Assembly: GCF_007998985.1 (NCBI RefSeq)
Contig: NZ_CP041659.1
Span: 1,486,001 to 1,550,000, forward strand
From: Sphingomonas xanthus
Lineage (GTDB): Bacteria; Pseudomonadota; Alphaproteobacteria; Sphingomonadales; Sphingomonadaceae
Length of the DNA: 64,000 nucleotides
Reading direction: 5' to 3'
Part shown: piece by piece, positions 54,332 through 63,693 of the stretch
Position numbering within the stretch: position 1 is the stretch's first letter
Layout: every line of letters starts with the position of its first letter
Notes under the pieces: model-generated
Database searches by the model: none
What the model was told of the DNA's origin: nothing
What the model saw: the letters and a program-made list of their open reading frames with translations, nothing else
Made by a program: the position numbers and the translations under genes

Positions 54332-54838
54332 TTACTTCTTGGTCTTGGCCGCGGGGGCCTTCTTGGTTGCCGCCTTAGCAGGTGCAGCATCCTTTGTCGA
54401 CTTCGCCGCCTTGGGCGCGGCTTCCGCCTTGGCAGCGGTTTTCGGCTCGGCGGCCTTTTCCGCCTTGGCGGGCGCTGAAGCCTTTTCCTCGGCCTTGGCC
54501 GGGGCAGTCTTCTTCTCGGCCGGAGCCTTTTGCGCCTTCTGGCCGCCGATGCTCACGATCTCGAGGATCGTGTGCTGCTGGCGGTGACCGGCCTTGCGGC
54601 GGTAGTTATGGCGGCGGCGCTTCTTGAACACCGTGACCTTTTCGCCCTTGGCCTGGGCAACGATCTTTGCCGCGACGGTCAGGCCGTCGGTCGACTTTAG
54701 GTCCGATCCTTCGCCGGCCAGCAGGACATCAGTCAGGTCGATGCTGTCACCGGCGTCACCAGCCAGCTTTTCGACGACGATCTTGTCTCCGGGGGCAACG
54801 CGGTACTGCTTGCCACCCGTGCGCACGATAGCGAACAT
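54332..54838 (-). CDS. rplU: 50S ribosomal protein L21 with Ala/Lys-rich tail
   Basis: Residues 1-100 are L21 ([39 protein letters not shown]). The remaining 70 or so residues are a low-complexity Ala/Lys/Glu/Pro tail, so the protein is 168 residues against about 103 for E. coli. Such tails are common on alphaproteobacterial L21. ATG 54838 starts the conserved MFAIVRTGG. Confidence 0.97.
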
Positions 54839-54917
54839 GGGCCTTATCACTTTCCGTCACGTATGAACCGCGCAAGGCTTGGCGCCGCGTGGCGACGCCC
54901 CGCGCGGGAAAGCGTGC

Positions 54918-55356: not shown

Positions 55357-56085
55357 TCAGCCGGGGATTTCCTTACCCCGCCAGTCGAAACAGCGGCCGC
55401 TGTCGCCGGGGCGCAGGCCGTCCAACACCGACAACAGAGCCCGGGCGCTCTGTTGCGGTGAAATCAGCTGCCCGTCGCGCAGGTTGCGCTGGAACGGCTT
55501 GCTGAGCCCGGTGTCGACGGTTCCGGGATGCAAGCCAACGAGGATCGCCTCCGGCCGGGTCCTGCCGAGCTCGATCGCCAGGGTACGGATGATCTGGTTC
55601 AGCGCCGCCTTTGAGGCTCGGTAACCAACCCAGCCGCCCAGCCGATTGTCCGCGATCGAACCGACCCGCGCTGACAGCGCCGCCATAACCGCGCGGCGAT
55701 CGGGGCGTAGCAGGGGGAGGAAGTGACGCATCACCAGTGCAGGGCCGATCGCATTGACCTGGAAATAGCGGTCCAGCGTTTCAGCACGGATTGCCCGCAT
55801 GCTCTTCTCCGGCTCGAGCGCTTTGTCATGGAGCAGGCCCGTAGCGAGGAAGATCAGATCAAACGGCCCGTCGGGGGACAATTCGGTCGCGGCCCGGGCG
55901 ATGCTGCCCGGATCGGTGAGGTCGACCGACGGGGTCGCTGAACGCGACAATTGGCGAACAGACGCACCGCGCTCCGCCAGCGCCGACGATAGGGCGCTGC
56001 CGATCCCTCCGGTCGAGCCGATGATGATCGCTTGCACATTGAGCCAACGTCCGCGATCCCGGGCGGGTTCAAACAGGCTTTGCAT
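55357..56085 (-). CDS. short-chain dehydrogenase (C-factor-like)
   Basis: A protein of 242 residues. The cofactor motif AIIIGSTGGIGSALSSALAERG and the catalytic YRASKAALN (Tyr-x3-Lys near residue 157) place it in the SDR superfamily, closest to the C-factor/CsgA type. No substrate can be inferred. The start is uncertain: ATG 56085 gives a 16-residue leader, GTG 56037 would start right at the Rossmann fold (VQAIIIGS). Confidence 0.85.
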   Translation of the reverse strand: MQSLFEPARDRGRWLNVQAIIIGSTGGIGSALSSALAERGASVRQLSRSATPSVDLTDPGSIARAATELSPDGPFDLIFLATGLLHDKALEPEKSMRAIRAETLDRYFQVNAIGPALVMRHFLPLLRPDRRAVMAALSARVGSIADNRLGGWVGYRASKAALNQIIRTLAIELGRTRPEAILVGLHPGTVDTGLSKPFQRNLRDGQLISPQQSARALLSVLDGLRPGDSGRCFDWRGKEIPG

Positions 56086-56156
56086 CTGCGGCAACCGCTG
56101 CTAGAGGCCGCCACCGACCTTGCCGGCCGTCCGCCGGCCCGGTGTTGCGCTTCTGC

Positions 56157-56246
<90 letters not shown>

Positions 56247-56308
56247 CATTCTGATGCTGTTGAGACGCTCCAGCTGGACGCCGATTGGCGCACGGCAAGG
56301 GAATCCCG

Positions 56309-57370
56309 TCATTGGCCCGGTTGAGCCTTCTTCGCCTTAAGCCGTTCCTCAAGCTCGGAAATTTCCCAATAATCGTTGCGGCTGAGCGGAAGCAGGGGCT
56401 TCAACGCGGCGAAGCTGGCCTTGCCGATCGCATGGCGCAGTGCTTCCAGCCGGTCGAATGCCGCGCCGGCTTCGACCTCGACTTTCGACACATCATCCAA
56501 TTGATCGTGCAGCGCATCCTCCGCAGTCCAGGCGAGAAATGTCAGCTGCTCGCAATATTCGCGGATACTCTCACCAGTTTTCGGATCTGACCGCGCCACC
56601 AGGGCGGCGATCTTGCGGCCGCTGTCGCTATCCGGGTAGCGGCCCGCGCGCCACCTATCGAGCGCGATGCGATGGGCCTCGCGTTCGGTTGCGAGCCACT
56701 TTTGCGCTTCGATCGCGCCGAAGCGCAAAAGCGTCATGATCAAGAAGGGGGCGGCTGCCACGGTGGCGATCATCGCCAGCATGGGTTGGTTGGGAAATTG
56801 ATTGAACAGGGTGTGGACCGCGACCGCGCCGAGATAGCCGGGGGCGAACCACAGCGGACTGAAGTTGAATTCGGCGGCGACGCCGCGGGTCTCGCGCTCG
56901 GCAAATTCATGCGCCGTCGCGGCGAGGATAGCGACCGCGCAGCCGTGCATCACCGCGGTTCCCAGGCCCCGCACCATCCAGACGGTCGGCGCGAGATCCG
57001 GGAAACGGGTCAGGTAGATGATGTTCTCGACTACGGAGAAGCCGGCGCCGATGGCGAAGCCGGAAATGACCGCGTCCAGCTTGAAACCGATGCGGTTGAA
57101 ATAGAATAATCCGACGATGGCCAGGCCCTTGATGAGCTCCTCGATCCAAGGCGCTGCAAAGCGGCTGTAACTGGAATAGCCCAGTGGCAGCTGGTCAAGG
57201 AAAACACCGCTGACCGGGTAAGCGATCCCGGCGGTCATCCCGCCGAGCGCGAGCAGGCCGATCGTTTCCCAACCGGTCATTAGCTTGAACACGTCGAGCC
57301 AGATGAACATCATCAGCATGACGAGTACCGGCGCCAGGGCGACCGACCAGTTGGTGAGCTCGAAGATCAT
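56309..57370 (-). CDS. PrsW-type intramembrane metalloprotease
   Basis: A 353-residue polytopic membrane protein. The PrsW active-site motifs are visible: PWIEELIKGLAIVG (EExxK, near residue 96), GFAIGAGFSVVENIIYL (near 133) and the later His in VAVHTLFNQ (near 210). PrsW of Bacillus cleaves an anti-sigma factor. The C-terminal 110 residues are cytoplasmic. The gene begins 12 bases after the HELAH-protease/barrel gene, so it is its likely partner in one operon. Confidence 0.87.
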   Translation of the reverse strand: MIFELTNWSVALAPVLVMLMMFIWLDVFKLMTGWETIGLLALGGMTAGIAYPVSGVFLDQLPLGYSSYSRFAAPWIEELIKGLAIVGLFYFNRIGFKLDAVISGFAIGAGFSVVENIIYLTRFPDLAPTVWMVRGLGTAVMHGCAVAILAATAHEFAERETRGVAAEFNFSPLWFAPGYLGAVAVHTLFNQFPNQPMLAMIATVAAAPFLIMTLLRFGAIEAQKWLATEREAHRIALDRWRAGRYPDSDSGRKIAALVARSDPKTGESIREYCEQLTFLAWTAEDALHDQLDDVSKVEVEAGAAFDRLEALRHAIGKASFAALKPLLPLSRNDYWEISELEERLKAKKAQPGQ

Positions 57371-57382
57371 CGCACGCCGACC

Positions 57383-60300
57383 CTACATGATCTTGAGCGA
57401 CGCGAGCAGTTCGGTCTTCTGATAGCGGCCGTCTTCGAATCCCGCAGCGGCGCCGACCGAGAAAATCATTGGCAAGCGCAGCGCAACGGTGAAATTCAGA
57501 TCGACCTGTCCGCCAAGGTCGTAATAATTGTGATTGCGGCCAGCAGCGTCGCGGGTCAGCATGGCACCGGCGAACAGGGCCGGCCGAGCGTAGCTAAGAT
57601 AGATGGCAGGTGTGCCTATCTCGGCGAAACGGACCGGTGGCAGGTTGATTTCCCCGGTAAGCTTGACGAAGCGGCGGGCGCTGATCTGGTCGATTTCGAA
57701 CCCCGGGAAACTGTCGATTTCGCGGTAGCGTTTTTCGGGCCGGTTATCGACGTAGTTGTTGCGGAACGAACCGAAGTAGAAGCTGCCGAGCGGGCTGGTC
57801 GCCTTGCCACCGGCGACACCGCCATGGATGTAAATCCAGGCCGAGGCATTGGCGATCGGTAGCGGGATGCCGTAATCGAGCCCGAGCTGGAGCTTGGGAT
57901 AAATATCGGACCGTGCGAAATCGGTCGTCCCGATCGCGCGCCAAGCCACGCCCTTTTCATGATCGACCCCACCCAGGGACTTGCGGGTATTCGTGTATTT
58001 GACCCCGCCTTCGACACTGAAAATATTGGCCGGGCTCGTGATATTCTGCGCCGAGGGCAATTGCGCGAGTCCGAAATATGCGGCCGCCGAGCCGAAGAAA
58101 TCGAGCTGGCGCGGGGGGTCGTAGATTTTGGTCTTATTCCAGCTCACGATGAACGCGTCGCCCTTGCGGCTGCGCTCGACCGGTCCGAACAGATCGTAAA
58201 AGTCGGCGTCGTTATGCTTATATTCTAAGCTCCAGTTCAATGTCTTATACTTCAGTCCGATGTGGAGCCGCTCGCGGTTCGGCAAATTTCCGAACGGCGA
58301 ATAGCTCACCGTCGCGTCGAACTGGCTGAACTGCATCGGATCTTCGAAGTGTATATAATATCCAGGCGAGATGGCGCCCTGATAGCCTTCGACGATCGGG
58401 TAGGCGGCGGCCAGCTTCATCCGCCTGGCCGGGCGATATTTGCCTCGCTCGGTGACCAGCGGGTCGAGGTCGATCTTTGCCGGCGAGCCAACGCCCCATT
58501 CCTTCAGTTCCGGATGCGCCTTGATCACTTTTGTGCCAAGAAATTCGACCGTGCCGAGATCGTCGCGTTTTTGCGGAACAATGCGCGAGGGGGTCAGGCC
58601 GGCGCCTGTATATTCGTAGACCAGCATGCTCCCGTCGGGCTGCGGGAGGGGCCGGAAGAAACCAGTCGAGGCGTTGCTCACCACCTCGTACTTCTGGGTC
58701 GCGATATCGAACGTGAAGACGTTTGACACGCCGGTATAATAGGCGGTGCCAACCAATGACTTGCCATCGGGCGAGAAAGTAAAGCTTTCGGGCGTCGAGG
58801 GCGACAGGTCGAGGCGGGCAACTTCCTGCGGGCCGCCGCCGGAAAGCAGGCTTTCGGCAGTCCAGACGCGGACCGACTGCTTGCCGTCGATTTCCCCGAA
58901 GCTGGCGGCGACCAGACCCCCGTCAGGCGAAATGTCGAGATCGAACGGGGTCTGGCCGTAGTCGAAGGTGTGGACCTGGTTGAAGCCGGCATAGGGCTGG
59001 GGAATGCGCACGATGGTGGCGAAGCCGTTCTGGTGGCGGATTCCCCAGATGGTTTTGTCGGCGGGGTTGACCACCAGGTCGCCGATCCGCGCGTCGCGGA
59101 GCAGCGTGCGTTTTCTACCGGTGTCGATGTCGATTTCCACCAAGTCGCGGAAGGCGTAATTGTCCTCGGTGTAATATGCTTTGCGGACCGCGGGATCAAA
59201 CGCGAGGCTGGTGACCTTGTAGAGCATCATGCCCTTGATTTCCTGGAGCTTGCGGAGCTTGCCGCTCGTCAGATCCATGGTTCCGACGAAGCCGATCGTG
59301 CCCGGGTAGCGGAAGGCGGCGACCAGGCTGTTGGTCTTCGGGTCGACGAAGCCGCGGCTGATCGACCCCAGGCCGATTGGGGACAGGTGGGTGACGTCGG
59401 TCAGCGGATAGGCCGAAAGCTTCGCCAATTGTTCCTTTTGGAATTGCTTTTCGAATGCGATCCATTCGGCCCAGGCATCATCGAGCTTGCGCCCGAAAAC
59501 ATGGCGGAACTGGGCGGCGTAAAAGGCCTTGCTGTCCGCATCGCGGCCGAGCCACTGGACGACCTTCCCTGGACCGTAGGTCAGGGCGAGCCAGGAGAAG
59601 AAACGCGTGCCGTAGAGGTAGTCGTTGACGCCGACCTGGAAATCGACCGCAGTACCTTCGGATTCGAGGCCAAGCGGCGAATAGAATGTGTCGCCATCGC
59701 GGACCTTGGCGCGGAACACCATTTCGTCATAAGCGCCCTGCGCGCGGCCAAGACCTCCTGCCATCCACGTCTCGAAAAACACCGCCGATCCTTCAAGGTA
59801 CCAGCGCGGCACCGCGTTGCGCGGGGTGGCGAGGTAATTCCACAGGATCGATTCCGGATGCTCCTGGATCGGCATCGGTTTTCCGCGCAGGAAGCGGCGC
59901 CAGCCGGCATCCTGACTGTTCCACACGTCCATCGTTGCGACGTGGGCCAGCTCATGGTTGGTCAGGGTGAAGAAGCGCTCGCCCGGGGTGAAGGTTTCCA
60001 TCGACACCGACAGTGGCGCGACATCGAGCAGCACGGCGTTGTTGGGCGACGAGCGGGCCGCGGCATTGCCGTAATCGCCGAAATCCTTGAGCAACAAGGT
60101 GGTCCGATCCCACGGCGTCCAGTTGAAGGTCTTCTTGTGGAAGACCAGCGCATTTTCGAAAGCGCGCGCGATGTAAGGTGTCAGGTAGGTCTGGACCGGG
60201 TCGAAGTAGAGCAGGCTGAGATTGGCGGTTTCGAGGGTCGACAGGTCGATGCCCGATGCGTCGGGCGGGACATGGTCGGGACCTTCTGCTTCTTCCCCGA

Positions 60301-60512: not shown

Positions 60513-62078
60513 TTACCGGGCCGCGATCGCTTGCGAGAAAGCCGGGCTCTGCAAGGCAGCGGCGAAGTTTGCGTTCATTGCCAGTGCCTGGAAATTGGGG
60601 TTGCGACCCAAGGCTGCAAACGCCTGCGCGTTGCGCGCGAAGGCTGCCAGCGCCGCCGGGTTACGCGCCAGTGCCGCAAACGCCTGCGGATTGGCGGCCA
60701 TGGCCGAGAAAGCCTGCGGATTACGCGCCATGGCGGACATCGCCTGTGCATCCAGCCGGCCCTGTGCCGCCGCGGCCTGCGAATTGAACGCCTGCGCCGC
60801 ACGGGCCGAGGCTGCGAGGCCATTGGCATCGCGCGCCATAGCCTGGAACGCCTTTGCGTTGCGCGCCATGGCATCGAGTGCCTGCTGGTTCATCGCCGCT
60901 TGGAACGCCTGCGCGTTGGAAGCGAGGGCGTTAAAGGCACTGGCGTTTCGACCGAGCGCCGAAAAAGCCTGGGCATCGCGGGCCAAGGCAGACATTGCCG
61001 CGCTATCCCGGGCAAGCGCCTGGAACGCCTGGGCGTCGCGCGCCATCGCCGCGATCCCCGCGGGGTTGCGAGCCGCCGCCGCAAAGGCATCGGCATCGCG
61101 ACCATAAGCTGAAAAGGCGTTGGCATTGCGCGCCATCGCGGCAAACGCCTGAGGATGGCGGGCGAGTGCGGCAAAGGCTTGCGGGTGCTGCGCCAGAGCG
61201 GCGAAAGCCTGCGGTTGCAGGGCGAGGGCATTGAAAGCCTGCGCGTTCATCGCGATTGCTGATGCGGCACTGGAATCGAATGCATTGGCGGCGCGACCTT
61301 GCGAGGCGAAGGCCTGGGCCGAGCGCGCGGCGGCGCTCAGTGCAGCGGCGTTCCTCGCCATGGCCGAAAAGGCATCGGCATTGCGCGCCATCGCGTCGAA
61401 CGCCTGAGCATCGCCGGCCAGCGCCGACATCGCCGCGCTGTCACGAGCGAGCGCCTGGAACGCCTGGGCCTGACGGGCCATGGCGGTTACCCCGGCCGGA
61501 TTGCGTGCCGCCGCGGCGAATGCATTCGCGTCTTTCGCATATGCGGCAAAAGCCTGGGCATCGCGGGCCATTGCCGCGAAAGCTTGAGGATGGCGCGCCA
61601 ACGCGTCGAACGCGTTGGCGTGACGCGCCATTGCCGCAAAGGCCTGGGCATCGCGGGCATTGGCGGCGCGACCAGCAGCGGACGCGGTCTCAGCATTCCT
61701 GACCATCGCGGCGAACGCCTGAGGATCGCGGGCGAGGGCGGCGAATGCCTGCGGATTGGCAGCCATGGCCGCCATAGCCTGCGGATTACGGGCCAATGCG
61801 GCGAAGCCGGGATCCTTCGCCATGGCGCGGAAATTGGGATCTTTGGTCATCACTTCGAAAGCGTCGGACTGCATCAGTTGCGGAATCGACGTATCGCCGA
61901 GTGTGACATCGCCTTCACCCACTTGGGGCGCGACATAACGGTCGGCGGGAGTGATCGTGCCTTCAGTGGGGCCGAACGGCGGATAAACGCGGCCCAGACC
62001 ATAAGCGCCGGCGGCGATCAGGACGACGAGCGCGCCAGATGCCAGATACTTGCGGTTGTTCGCGGTGGTAGCGTTCAT
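60513..62078 (-). CDS. membrane-anchored decapeptide-repeat protein
   Basis: A 521-residue protein that I do not recognise. After one hydrophobic anchor or uncleaved signal (about residues 11-29) and a short linker, residues 70-521 consist of about 44 imperfect ten-residue units of the form D/N-x-Q-A-F-x-A-L/M-A-R. The first three and last three units are nine residues long. Composition is mostly Ala with regular Phe and Arg, so long amphipathic helices or a superhelix are likely. A 58-residue block repeats at a distance of 145 residues (163-220 and 308-365). It starts the operon with the protease/barrel and PrsW genes. Confidence 0.75.
   Translation of the reverse strand: MNATTANNRKYLASGALVVLIAAGAYGLGRVYPPFGPTEGTITPADRYVAPQVGEGDVTLGDTSIPQLMQSDAFEVMTKDPNFRAMAKDPGFAALARNPQAMAAMAANPQAFAALARDPQAFAAMVRNAETASAAGRAANARDAQAFAAMARHANAFDALARHPQAFAAMARDAQAFAAYAKDANAFAAAARNPAGVTAMARQAQAFQALARDSAAMSALAGDAQAFDAMARNADAFSAMARNAAALSAAARSAQAFASQGRAANAFDSSAASAIAMNAQAFNALALQPQAFAALAQHPQAFAALARHPQAFAAMARNANAFSAYGRDADAFAAAARNPAGIAAMARDAQAFQALARDSAAMSALARDAQAFSALGRNASAFNALASNAQAFQAAMNQQALDAMARNAKAFQAMARDANGLAASARAAQAFNSQAAAAQGRLDAQAMSAMARNPQAFSAMAANPQAFAALARNPAALAAFARNAQAFAALGRNPNFQALAMNANFAAALQSPAFSQAIAAR
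60516..61868 (-). repeat. tandem 30-base repeats coding the decapeptides
   Basis: About 44 diverged copies of a 30-base unit (27 bases at both ends) fill 1.35 kb. A larger duplication is nested inside: 61419-61592 and 60984-61157 encode nearly the same 58 residues, offset by 435 bases. The units are too diverged and without spacers for a CRISPR array. Confidence 0.85.
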
Positions 62079-62105
62079 GAGTGCCCCCTATTGAACCATC
62101 CGCCT

Positions 62106-62133
62106 TTATTAATAATTTGTTAACCGGAGTCAA
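62106..62133 (-). promoter_or_regulatory. promoter of the repeat-protease-PrsW operon
   Basis: On the minus strand TTGACT (62133-62128) and TAATAA (62111-62106) are 16 bases apart, about 28 bases before the start codon at 62078. An AGGGGG ribosome binding site precedes the ATG. A CtrA box covers the spacer and -10. Confidence 0.65.
62109..62124. promoter_or_regulatory. CtrA binding box
   Basis: TTAATAATTTGTTAAC fits the alphaproteobacterial CtrA consensus TTAA-N7-TTAA exactly, with the favoured C after it. It overlaps the -10 and spacer of the operon promoter, a position expected to repress more than activate. No other full box was found in the intergenic regions I inspected. Upstream (62134-62293) I see no further gene or element. 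Confidence 0.65.
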
Positions 62134-62293: not shown

Positions 62294-63028
62294 TCAGGCG
62301 GCAGTGCGCTGCTGTTCGCGCCAGTCCGTAGTGCGGCGATCGTAGTCATCGGCCAGCGCCTCGAGCGCGGCGGCGCAATCGCCTTCGAAGCTGGGTCCGT
62401 GCATCAGTGCTAGCCGGGCCGGCTTGAGCGCGGCAAGGCGGCGGATGGTTGATCCCATCTGGGGATGAAGGCTTGAGAAGCCGAACTGATCCTCGGCGGC
62501 GATCGCCGGACCGACAATGTCCGAAGCGGTCAGGGCATGCGCCGCTCCCACCTGCGTGAACAGATCGCCGCACAGCAATGTGTCGCTCGTTTCCTCATAA
62601 AGCAGTCCCGCATCCCATCCGTGCGGCGTATGCGGCGTGTCGATATAGCGCACACGCTTGCCGCCAAGGTCGAGCAGCGCTTCGTTTCCTAGCGCCACTG
62701 GTGCGCGGTCGCACATGTCGGTGAGATTGATATCGCAGGCAAGCGCACCATGCGCGACCTGCGCGTTCGCGGCAGTCTCGAGCCACAGATTGGCCGATCC
62801 GCATTCGTCGGCCTCGACATGGCCGAAGCTGATCCAGCGCAGGGTCTCGGGCGGGATGACCTGGGCGACGGCATCGCGCACCGCAGGGAAGAGCTGCCGC
62901 TGCCCCGTGTGGAAGAGCAAGGGCTGGTCGGCGAGGATGAGGAACTGGTTGAAGGTCAGGCCGGCAGGCGGAACAAAGGTCGAAATGCGAAAGATGCCGT
63001 CGGCGATCTCGTCGAGCTGGGTAGTCAT
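62294..63028 (-). CDS. MBL-fold metallo-hydrolase, flavodiiron-like domain
   Basis: A protein of 244 residues from the ATG at 63028. The metal-binding set FGHVEADECGS (HxExD near residue 73), QVAHGA, CGDLF and LMHGPSFEGD matches the beta-lactamase domain of flavodiiron proteins, but no flavodoxin domain follows. Family members of this single-domain type are often oxygen- or NO-linked; function here is not proven. It is divergent from a TetR gene, and the 62 bases between them hold a palindrome. Confidence 0.82.
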   Translation of the reverse strand: MTTQLDEIADGIFRISTFVPPAGLTFNQFLILADQPLLFHTGQRQLFPAVRDAVAQVIPPETLRWISFGHVEADECGSANLWLETAANAQVAHGALACDINLTDMCDRAPVALGNEALLDLGGKRVRYIDTPHTPHGWDAGLLYEETSDTLLCGDLFTQVGAAHALTASDIVGPAIAAEDQFGFSSLHPQMGSTIRRLAALKPARLALMHGPSFEGDCAAALEALADDYDRRTTDWREQQRTAA

Positions 63029-63055
63029 GCTGCCGCCTTTCCGATGAGAATTAAA

Positions 63056-63084
63056 TTGACTACACAGCACTGTGCAATTATTTT
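63056..63084 (+). promoter_or_regulatory. promoter and dyad operator between MBL and TetR genes
   Basis: TTGACT (63056-63061) and TATTTT (63079-63084) with a 17-base spacer form a promoter for the TetR gene. The spacer contains the perfect dyad CACAG-CA-CTGTG (63063-63074), a likely operator. On the minus strand TTGCAC and TTAATT are also 17 apart, so one dyad could control both genes. Confidence 0.55.
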
Positions 63085-63090
63085 GAGAAA

Positions 63091-63693
63091 ATGTCAACGC
63101 ATTCGCTTAATGCTCCCCCAAAACGGGATTATCGGCTGGGCAAACGGGCCAAGAAGCAGGAAGAGACGCGCCAGCGCATTGTCGAGGCGGCAGTCGACCT
63201 GCACTGTTCGATCGGTCCGGCGCGCACGAGCGTGTCGCAAATTGCCGAGCGGGCAGGGGTGCAGCGTCATACCTATTATGCCCACTTTCCCGACGAGTGG
63301 GACCTGTTGACGGCCTGCTCGGGCCTGGCGCTGTCTCGCGACCCGCTCCCCAGCGTTGAGGACTGGCTGGATTTTCCCCCCGGCCAAGAACGGATCGTCC
63401 ACGGGCTTGCTGAACTCTATGCCTGGTTCGGCCGCAATGAAGGGCAGGCCGCCTGCGTCCTGAGGGACGCGGAACATCACGAGCCGACACGAAAGATCGT
63501 CGCGCTAAGGATGCAGCCGACATTCCAGCGCGCGGCCGCTCTGCTCGCGGAAGGCCTGCCCGGGCAGGGCGCGTCGCTGGTCGCGGTGGCGCTCGATTTC
63601 CACTGCTGGCGGATCCTGGCGAGCGATCATAGTCCGTCAGGTGCAGCGGCGCTGATGGCGGGCGCTATTTGCAGCACGACCCCTGTCGCCTAA
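63091..63693 (+). CDS. TetR/AcrR family regulator
   Basis: A 200-residue regulator. The HTH is near residues 50-70 (TSVSQIAERAGVQRHTYYAHF), after a basic N-terminus. The rest is the helical ligand domain (LYAWFGRNEGQAACVLRDAEHH). It probably controls the divergent MBL-fold gene through the dyad at 63063. Confidence 0.88.
   Translation: MSTHSLNAPPKRDYRLGKRAKKQEETRQRIVEAAVDLHCSIGPARTSVSQIAERAGVQRHTYYAHFPDEWDLLTACSGLALSRDPLPSVEDWLDFPPGQERIVHGLAELYAWFGRNEGQAACVLRDAEHHEPTRKIVALRMQPTFQRAAALLAEGLPGQGASLVAVALDFHCWRILASDHSPSGAAALMAGAICSTTPVA

Follow-up and report, generated by a model that had tools for sequence, protein, structure and literature searches.

What role can be assigned to a predicted bacterial protein that is almost entirely a tandem array of ten-residue units? 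The question is raised by a gene on the reverse strand of the window (the whole stretch of 64,000 nucleotides of Sphingomonas xanthus DNA that was analysed), which an initial annotation, made from the letters alone, had described as encoding about 44 decapeptide copies. In its product, a single transmembrane segment near the N-terminus is followed by a membrane-proximal head and then by a tail of about 42 short units, and the gene is the first of an operon in which it is followed by the gene for a second protein, C0, and then by that for a PrsW-family protein (Table 1). The initial annotation had noticed neither the membrane anchor and head nor the partner genes and the sigma-factor context described below. 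Our main reading, to which we give a probability of roughly 0.4, is that the repeat protein, anchored in the inner membrane and extending into the periplasm, is one of the three proteins of an envelope module, in which it would serve as a tether or bait for two proteases.

Table 1. Features of the repeat gene, its partners and its surroundings, in window coordinates except for the last two rows, which are numbered within their own loci.
Feature	Position	Strand	Remarks
Repeat protein gene (C2)	60513..62078	-	ATG start; 521 aa
Shine-Dalgarno-like AGGGGG	62084..62089	-	
Sigma70-like element	62106..62133	-	TTGACTCCGGTTAAC...
Predicted transmembrane segment, residues about 12-31	61986..62045	-	read from sequence
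Membrane-proximal head, residues 33-77	61848..61982	-	PP..GT[IV]xPAxRY..DVxLGDxxVxxLMQ[ST]DAF; invariant columns of alignments A1, A4
Tandem repeat tail	60516..61844	-	short helices; 9-mers at both ends, 10-mers between
C0 gene	57383..60481	-	1032 aa; predicted outer-membrane protein; 31 nt downstream of the repeat gene
C0 peptidase-like domain, residues 81-355	59417..60241	-	
HExxH of C0 (H176 E177 H180)	59942-59956	-	with E230, invariant in 36/36 members
C0 TolB-like beta-propeller, residues 359-634	58580..59407	-	
C0 predicted outer-membrane barrel, residues 689-1031	57389..58417	-	strand pattern in model
PrsW-family intramembrane protease gene	56309..57370	-	353 aa; 12 nt downstream of C0; PF13367 7.1e-16
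tRNA-Ser (CGA)	56157-56246	+	just downstream of the PrsW gene
Open reading frame	55854-56312	-	GWDSNPRYRCRHAAF...; antisense over tRNA-Ser; probably a mechanical ORF rather than a gene
Open reading frame	54332-54850	-	ribosomal protein L21-like by eye; long Ala/Lys/Pro-rich C-terminal tail; 18-bp DNA repeat
ODP-type metallo-beta-lactamase-fold gene	62294-63097	-	directly upstream of the repeat gene; PF19583 1.5e-10; not among neighbours common to other loci
Remote C0 homologue, locus L085	7165-10017		HEFVH; Omp85 match 4e-8
Remote C0 homologue, locus L086	5568-8396		

The repetition is clear in the body of the array, where identity at a lag of 10 residues is 0.459, compared with 0.193 +/- 0.015 and a maximum of 0.247 in 2000 shuffles; a second level of repetition, with a block of about 145 residues, is visible as an identity of 0.438 at lag 145. 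In the DNA, Tandem Repeats Finder detects a period of 30 bp in part of the gene only (60600-60746). A strict pattern picks out 32 decamers, of which 31 are clean and one is out of register, and degenerate stretches are also present. Their consensus by column, [ND]-[AP]-Q-A-F-x-A-[ML]-A-R, agrees with the ten-residue unit first proposed, and nonapeptides of the DPxFxALA type were found at both ends of the array, as the same annotation had it. The AlphaFold2 model has 42 helices after the transmembrane helix, most of 7-9 residues and three of 19-21, and so predicts about one short helix per unit, in keeping with the regular helical array that had been anticipated; measured against these 42 helices and 32 strict decamers, the repeat itself stands and the count of about 44 copies was slightly generous.

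A gene of this composition could also be a low-complexity open reading frame and not a genuine protein, and the antisense frames are indeed partly open too; codon-position GC (0.71/0.58/0.72) is alone not decisive for coding. However, homologues, head, gene order and start signals all fall in the one frame. Because the homologues share that frame and the gene order is constant, we regard the gene as real and give the low-complexity reading next to no chance.

No Pfam or NCBIfam match accounts for the repeat array, which bears out the earlier failure to recognise a family. The NCBIfam scan of the protein gave no match, and in the Pfam scan YlbE rose above its cut-off, but across a 27-residue stretch, with CortBP2, XPC-binding and STI1 matches all under theirs. 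A faint resemblance to STI1-like helices, also remarked on at the outset, recurs in relatives (STI1/HOP_DP, 0.0079; XPC-binding, 7.9e-5) and in a structure profile, the STI1 NMR structure 2llw being matched at E 0.02 by an N-terminal profile; in the window itself the Pfam matches remain below cut-off (STI1-HOP_DP, 12.4 bits against 29.1; XPC-binding, 12.4 against 26.4). In locus L040, XPC-binding reaches 28.1 bits against a cut-off of 26.4, covering 20 of 57 positions, and the database protein P0022 has XPC-binding as its precomputed domain. Pfam, NCBIfam and PADLOC placed no C-terminal toxin domain, as in PrsW-dependent polymorphic toxin systems, in the repeat protein, and no solved fold accounting for it was found in the searches made.

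The N-terminal part of C0 carries HExxH, and the protein has a TolB-like propeller; the TolB equivalog TIGR02800 scores 19.9 bits against a cut-off of 343.15. Among 36 members of the C0 family one matched Peptidase_MA_2 (0.0082), and the peptidase-like piece of C0, searched alone, had no Pfam match. The third product belongs to the PrsW family (PF13367, 58.8 bits against a gathering score of 23.5), with E77, E78, K81, E115, H142 and H186 invariant in 17/17; the catalytic residues would be among these invariant motif positions of C0 and PrsW. Distance correlations (0.83 for C0 and head, 0.70 for C0 and PrsW, and a weak 0.48 for PrsW and head) are uncorrected for shared ancestry and are not evidence of interaction.

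The linkage of the repeat gene to its partners, and its co-occurrence with C0 in the genomes sampled, are documented by comparison of sequences. The 33 loci compared comprise the window, 26 loci of alpha-, beta- and gammaproteobacteria found by scanning species genomes with one head pattern, GT[IV][AT]PA[QD]RY, from alignment A1, and six further loci. Since the 26 were picked by this pattern, conservation of that stretch among them is selection; outside the selection are the rest of the head (the proline pair, DV, GD and MQTD), database proteins found through the repeat, and the profile-found loci L087-L089, whose heads include GTVAPMQRY and GTLAPAERT. In all 30 loci whose contig extends far enough, the next gene after the repeat gene is C0 (L058, L059 and L062 end within the repeat gene), and PrsW follows in 26 of the 27 with a complete C0, the exception being L053. 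A further family, C6, precedes the module in L057, L060 (Rhizomicrobium), L061 and L087; its longest open reading frame has 751 aa (L057), and those of L057, L061 and L087 have no Pfam match.

Across 337 genomes of the class, profiles of C0 (E <= 1e-20) and of the head (E <= 1e-5) match the same five. Among 149 genomes of the family, three have a full-length C0 and the same three have the repeat protein; any C0 match at all occurs in 48, and the 45 weak partial ones, mostly to the propeller (E 4.6e-6 to 9.1e-4), were left out of these counts, as were two weak repeat-only matches with internal stops (E 2.4e-4, 9.2e-4). The module is absent from a genome of the same genus (G077), and among 398 genomes of the phylum C0 and head occur together only in the window's own. 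Five genomes of one genus have a remote C0, matched in its peptidase part (E 1.7e-25 to 7.9e-22), and no head match; neither a repeat gene nor PrsW adjoins it in the two of these neighbourhoods that were examined (L085, L086). Judged by such profile matches, C0-like proteins can occur alone, and a head without C0 was not found in the samples searched. Three database proteins were set aside by their look, P0007 (peptidase-like, joined at EAFAAMA) and P0028 (sigma-factor-like, joined at the repeat) as apparent assembly chimeras and P0031 as frame-shifted.

Aligned with one another, the proteins have a common head and a replaceable tail. In the window the head follows the hydrophobic N-terminal segment as GTITPADRY...DVTLGDTSIPQLMQSDAF; AlphaFold2 models a helix at residues 4-28, over the transmembrane region, with low pLDDT, and gives the head region a pLDDT under 50 for residues up to 62. 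The head is alignable between lineages, being shortened to GTIAPAQRY plus DV in L062-L064; within the family, conservation is lowest in the repeat sequence, which thus does not define the protein. Tails of period 10 are found in 12 sphingomonad-type loci and in L039, L040, L088 and L089; of period 9 in L041, L043, L046, L049, L051, L053, L056, L058 and L059; of period 8 in L057, L060, L061, L087 and L064; and of period 5 in L062 and L063. Residues differ between the period classes, with Ala/Ser-rich 8-mers in L057, L060, L061 and L087, GQALGQAQ in L064, and ANQGT 5-mers in L062 and L063. These statistics cover 32 of the 33 loci, L052 having been left out, and the tails of L042 and L048 barely exceed chance (0.22 against 0.15, and 0.19 against 0.14). 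That a single head is joined to tails with four different unit lengths raises the question of which task needs a repeat, and none in particular.

In distant relatives, the module is further linked to an extracytoplasmic-function (ECF) sigma factor, an anti-sigma-like domain and a promoter. Upstream of it, BLAST finds an ECF sigma gene in 14 of the 33 loci, with a GAF-SpoIIE-type gene in 14/14 of these and a STAS gene in 13/14 (assigned by Pfam on L040). The ECF of L040 scores 102.3 bits with TIGR02937 (cut-off 42.9), and the best NCBIfam model for the ECF sigma is SigW (7.4e-35; 120.5 bits, under the cut-off of 209). The anti-sigma-like domain of L040 is below cut-off both with NF052375 (1.2e-7, 32 bits against 100) and with zf-HC2 (0.021). 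It is encoded by a separate gene in eight of the 14 loci and in frame with the repeat protein in six (L041, L043, L058 and L062-L064). Of 26 database proteins inspected visually (31 matches in total), 13 also carry it. The related loci would contain an ECF sigma/anti-sigma/PrsW unit, with the anti-sigma similarity below cut-off. In the six in-frame loci, a purine-rich Shine-Dalgarno-like tract and then an internal in-frame ATG come before the transmembrane segment. The anti-sigma/repeat linker was considered as a conserved protein feature and rejected, as the DNA there carries a promoter and the Shine-Dalgarno-like tract, for which reason the long fused product is only putative. L039 keeps the switch genes and has no ECF gene; in a further 18 of the 33 loci the sequence covered, which upstream of L047 is only 355 bases, contains no ECF gene.

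On reading, the gaps between genes show CCAACTTTT ... GTA. An initial search, in which the spacer could vary and the end was GGT, gave nine matches against about 0.9 expected. The form [CA]AA[CG][CT]T[TC]-N14-GTA has 26 matches on the gene strand and one on the opposite strand in 15 loci (L039 included), compared with 0-5 matches at each spacing of 8-13 and 15-20; the motif was fitted on the same loci in which it was counted, so that the 26 matches are no independent test, and L062 and L063 are near-identical. The 18 loci without the sigma gene have one match on each strand. The motif precedes 14/14 ECF genes and 12/14 repeat genes (not those of L053 and L064), lying inside the linker in the in-frame loci, and is not found in L039. 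Across 14 whole genomes, a strict CCAACYTT-N14-GTA has 32 matches, 23 at the module locus and nine elsewhere, the latter compared with 22 in a backward control and hence no enrichment; this strict pattern makes the sigma gene itself and the operon of the repeat gene the putative targets of the sigma factor. In 12 of the 14 loci (L040, L041, L043, L046, L049, L052, L053, L056, L058, L062, L063, L064) GTA is 3 nt away from the likely sigma start codon, with 6 nt in L051 and about 31 in L059, and the 3-nt distance suggests a leaderless sigma mRNA.

Between the repeat gene and C0, strong hairpins, in several cases with a T-run behind them, are present in L040, L041, L043, L046, L049, L052, L053, L056 and L063; they are weak in L064 (z-score -1.64) and L051 (-0.58), the gap in the window has none (-0.28), and the z-scores are biased because the stretches were chosen by eye. 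Hairpins with T-runs suggest partial termination, by which the repeat protein might be made in excess of C0.

The sigma arm is missing from the window. Its operon contains neither an ECF nor an anti-sigma gene and so no such signalling unit, and its genome has no match to the N14 promoter, no close sigma factor (two distant ECF-like matches, the better at 30% identity, 5e-10) and at most weak local matches to a switch gene. With sigma factor and promoter absent, signalling by the sigma route cannot be the role of the module in this genome, from which the arm was presumably lost rather than gained elsewhere. A Shine-Dalgarno-like tract and a sigma70-like element stand upstream of the repeat gene (Table 1), and TTGACT followed by TTAA 4-5 nt on is found in 6 of 11 sphingomonad-type upstream regions, a count made without a shuffled control. 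In the window genome a housekeeping-type promoter would then drive the trio, which would work by itself as an envelope tether or maintenance unit.

How such a module might work can be proposed from the predicted topology. We infer that the head, just outside the inner membrane, would be the site of PrsW action, and that the tail would extend into the periplasm, where C0, in the outer membrane, could hold or cleave it. A disturbance of the outer membrane would free the tail or allow it to be cut, whereupon PrsW would cut the head; in sigma-type bacteria, this cut would release the anti-sigma part and turn the sigma factor on, and active sigma would yield more sigma and more repeat protein. PrsW cleaves RsiW next to the membrane. 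We favour the bait or tether model by analogy with this reaction, in which PrsW is the site-1 protease according to PMC3498285, and with TolA-TolB. Counting against the model are L053, which is without PrsW, L039, with neither ECF gene nor motif, the eight of 14 sigma-type loci in which the anti-sigma gene is separate, the anti-sigma scores below cut-off, the absence of the sigma arm from the window genome, the remote C0 homologues that have no head, the same-genus genome G077 without the module, and the weak correlation of PrsW and head distances.

Other functions would also suit parts of the evidence. The tail could be an STI1-like holdase array, whose Phe/Met/Leu faces form a hydrophobic groove and pass unfolded envelope proteins to C0, for degradation or insertion, and to PrsW. 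The units begin with D/N-[AP] and have Phe as their fifth and Met/Leu as their eighth residue, profile similarity to STI1 and XPC-binding domains points the same way, and PMC8010706 describes STI1-type domains as helical hands, rich in methionine, to which hydrophobic segments bind. However, the tails of L057, L060, L061, L087, L062, L063 and L064 are without such faces and the gene order is unchanged, and most STI1/XPC matches are under cut-off, the exceptions being L040 and the precomputed domain of P0022. Since tails change type behind a common head, an activity that depends on a Phe face is not the function of all members, and we consider a holdase quite unlikely.

It is unlikely, too, that the repeat protein is cargo, cut free by PrsW and exported or displayed by the C0 barrel as a surface fibre or coat. 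The change of repeat type behind a common head is as in surface proteins; the barrel has weak Omp85 similarity (weak Omp85_2 matches in 8/36 C0 members, in addition to that of the remote homologue in L085); PrsW has been proposed, in PMC3482391, as a releasing or export protease for unrelated secreted proteins; and of the 11 sigma-type gaps that were folded, nine have hairpins after the repeat gene, which would favour an excess of repeat protein over C0. Against export stand the Pfam matches of the 36 C0 members, among which there is no POTRA or secretion domain, the periplasmic part of C0, which resembles a peptidase plus propeller, and the in-frame anti-sigma-like domain of six loci, which fits badly. 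A transmembrane segment with a long Ala-rich tail is also reminiscent of TolA. Coupled with a TolB-like propeller partner, and with very different repeat types at the same place, such a layout might be a pure spacer, a TolA-like tether between inner and outer membrane whose tail is merely long and soluble and whose proteases serve turnover only. Yet the repeat protein has no TolA match in a Pfam scan up to E 1, its C-terminus consisting of repeat units; the common part adjoins the membrane and not the far end; and complete tails of 132 to 533 residues make no fixed ruler. We hold a pure spacer to be distinctly unlikely, and prefer the bait or tether reading.

The locus could represent a new class of envelope signalling and repair module of Proteobacteria, with a constant bait head cut by PrsW, an interchangeable tail monitored by C0 from across the periplasm, a dedicated ECF for which no targets were detected beyond its own gene and the bait operon, and a form in sphingomonads that persists without sigma, the tail being a solenoid of ten-residue helices unmatched among the solved structures searched here; we put this forward as a doubtful, tentative proposal. 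Its parts (ECF, PrsW, TolB-like propeller) are known, no description of the assembly, the repeat family or the promoter was found among the listed titles and opening lines of abstracts from the open-licence literature, and the ECF group may be covered by the published ECF re-classification. The comparison ties an orphan repeat protein to two predicted proteases and, in relatives, to a self-contained ECF circuit whose promoter can be recognised, which opens the function of the protein to ordinary genetic tests. Further, a decapeptide array that folded as predicted would offer protein designers a compact helical repeat.

Among known systems, SigW-RsiW-PrsW of Bacillus subtilis is similar in that PrsW sits beside a single-pass protein, which in relatives of the window is accompanied by an anti-sigma-like domain and a SigW-like ECF. 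It differs in that the module is Gram-negative, with a predicted outer-membrane peptidase-propeller-barrel partner, a long repeat tail and an upstream partner switch (GAF-SpoIIE, HATPase, STAS), and in that the window is without such a sigma factor. Unlike TolA-TolB-Pal, the module has its propeller in one polypeptide with a peptidase-like domain and a barrel, its repeat protein has no TolA match, and no tol/pal genes were noticed adjoining it among the neighbours searched in part. With STI1/DP and XPC-binding domains the repeat protein shares short helices, D/N-P starts, Met/Phe faces and weak profile similarity, but it is predicted to have about 42 helices in one array, not five, and its tail type is not conserved. 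The RsbU-RsbW-RsbV switch belongs with SigB-type sigma factors; GAF-SpoIIE phosphatase, HATPase and STAS genes likewise head the sigma-type operons (Pfam in L040, BLAST in the others), whereas the switch of this module sits beside an ECF sigma factor.
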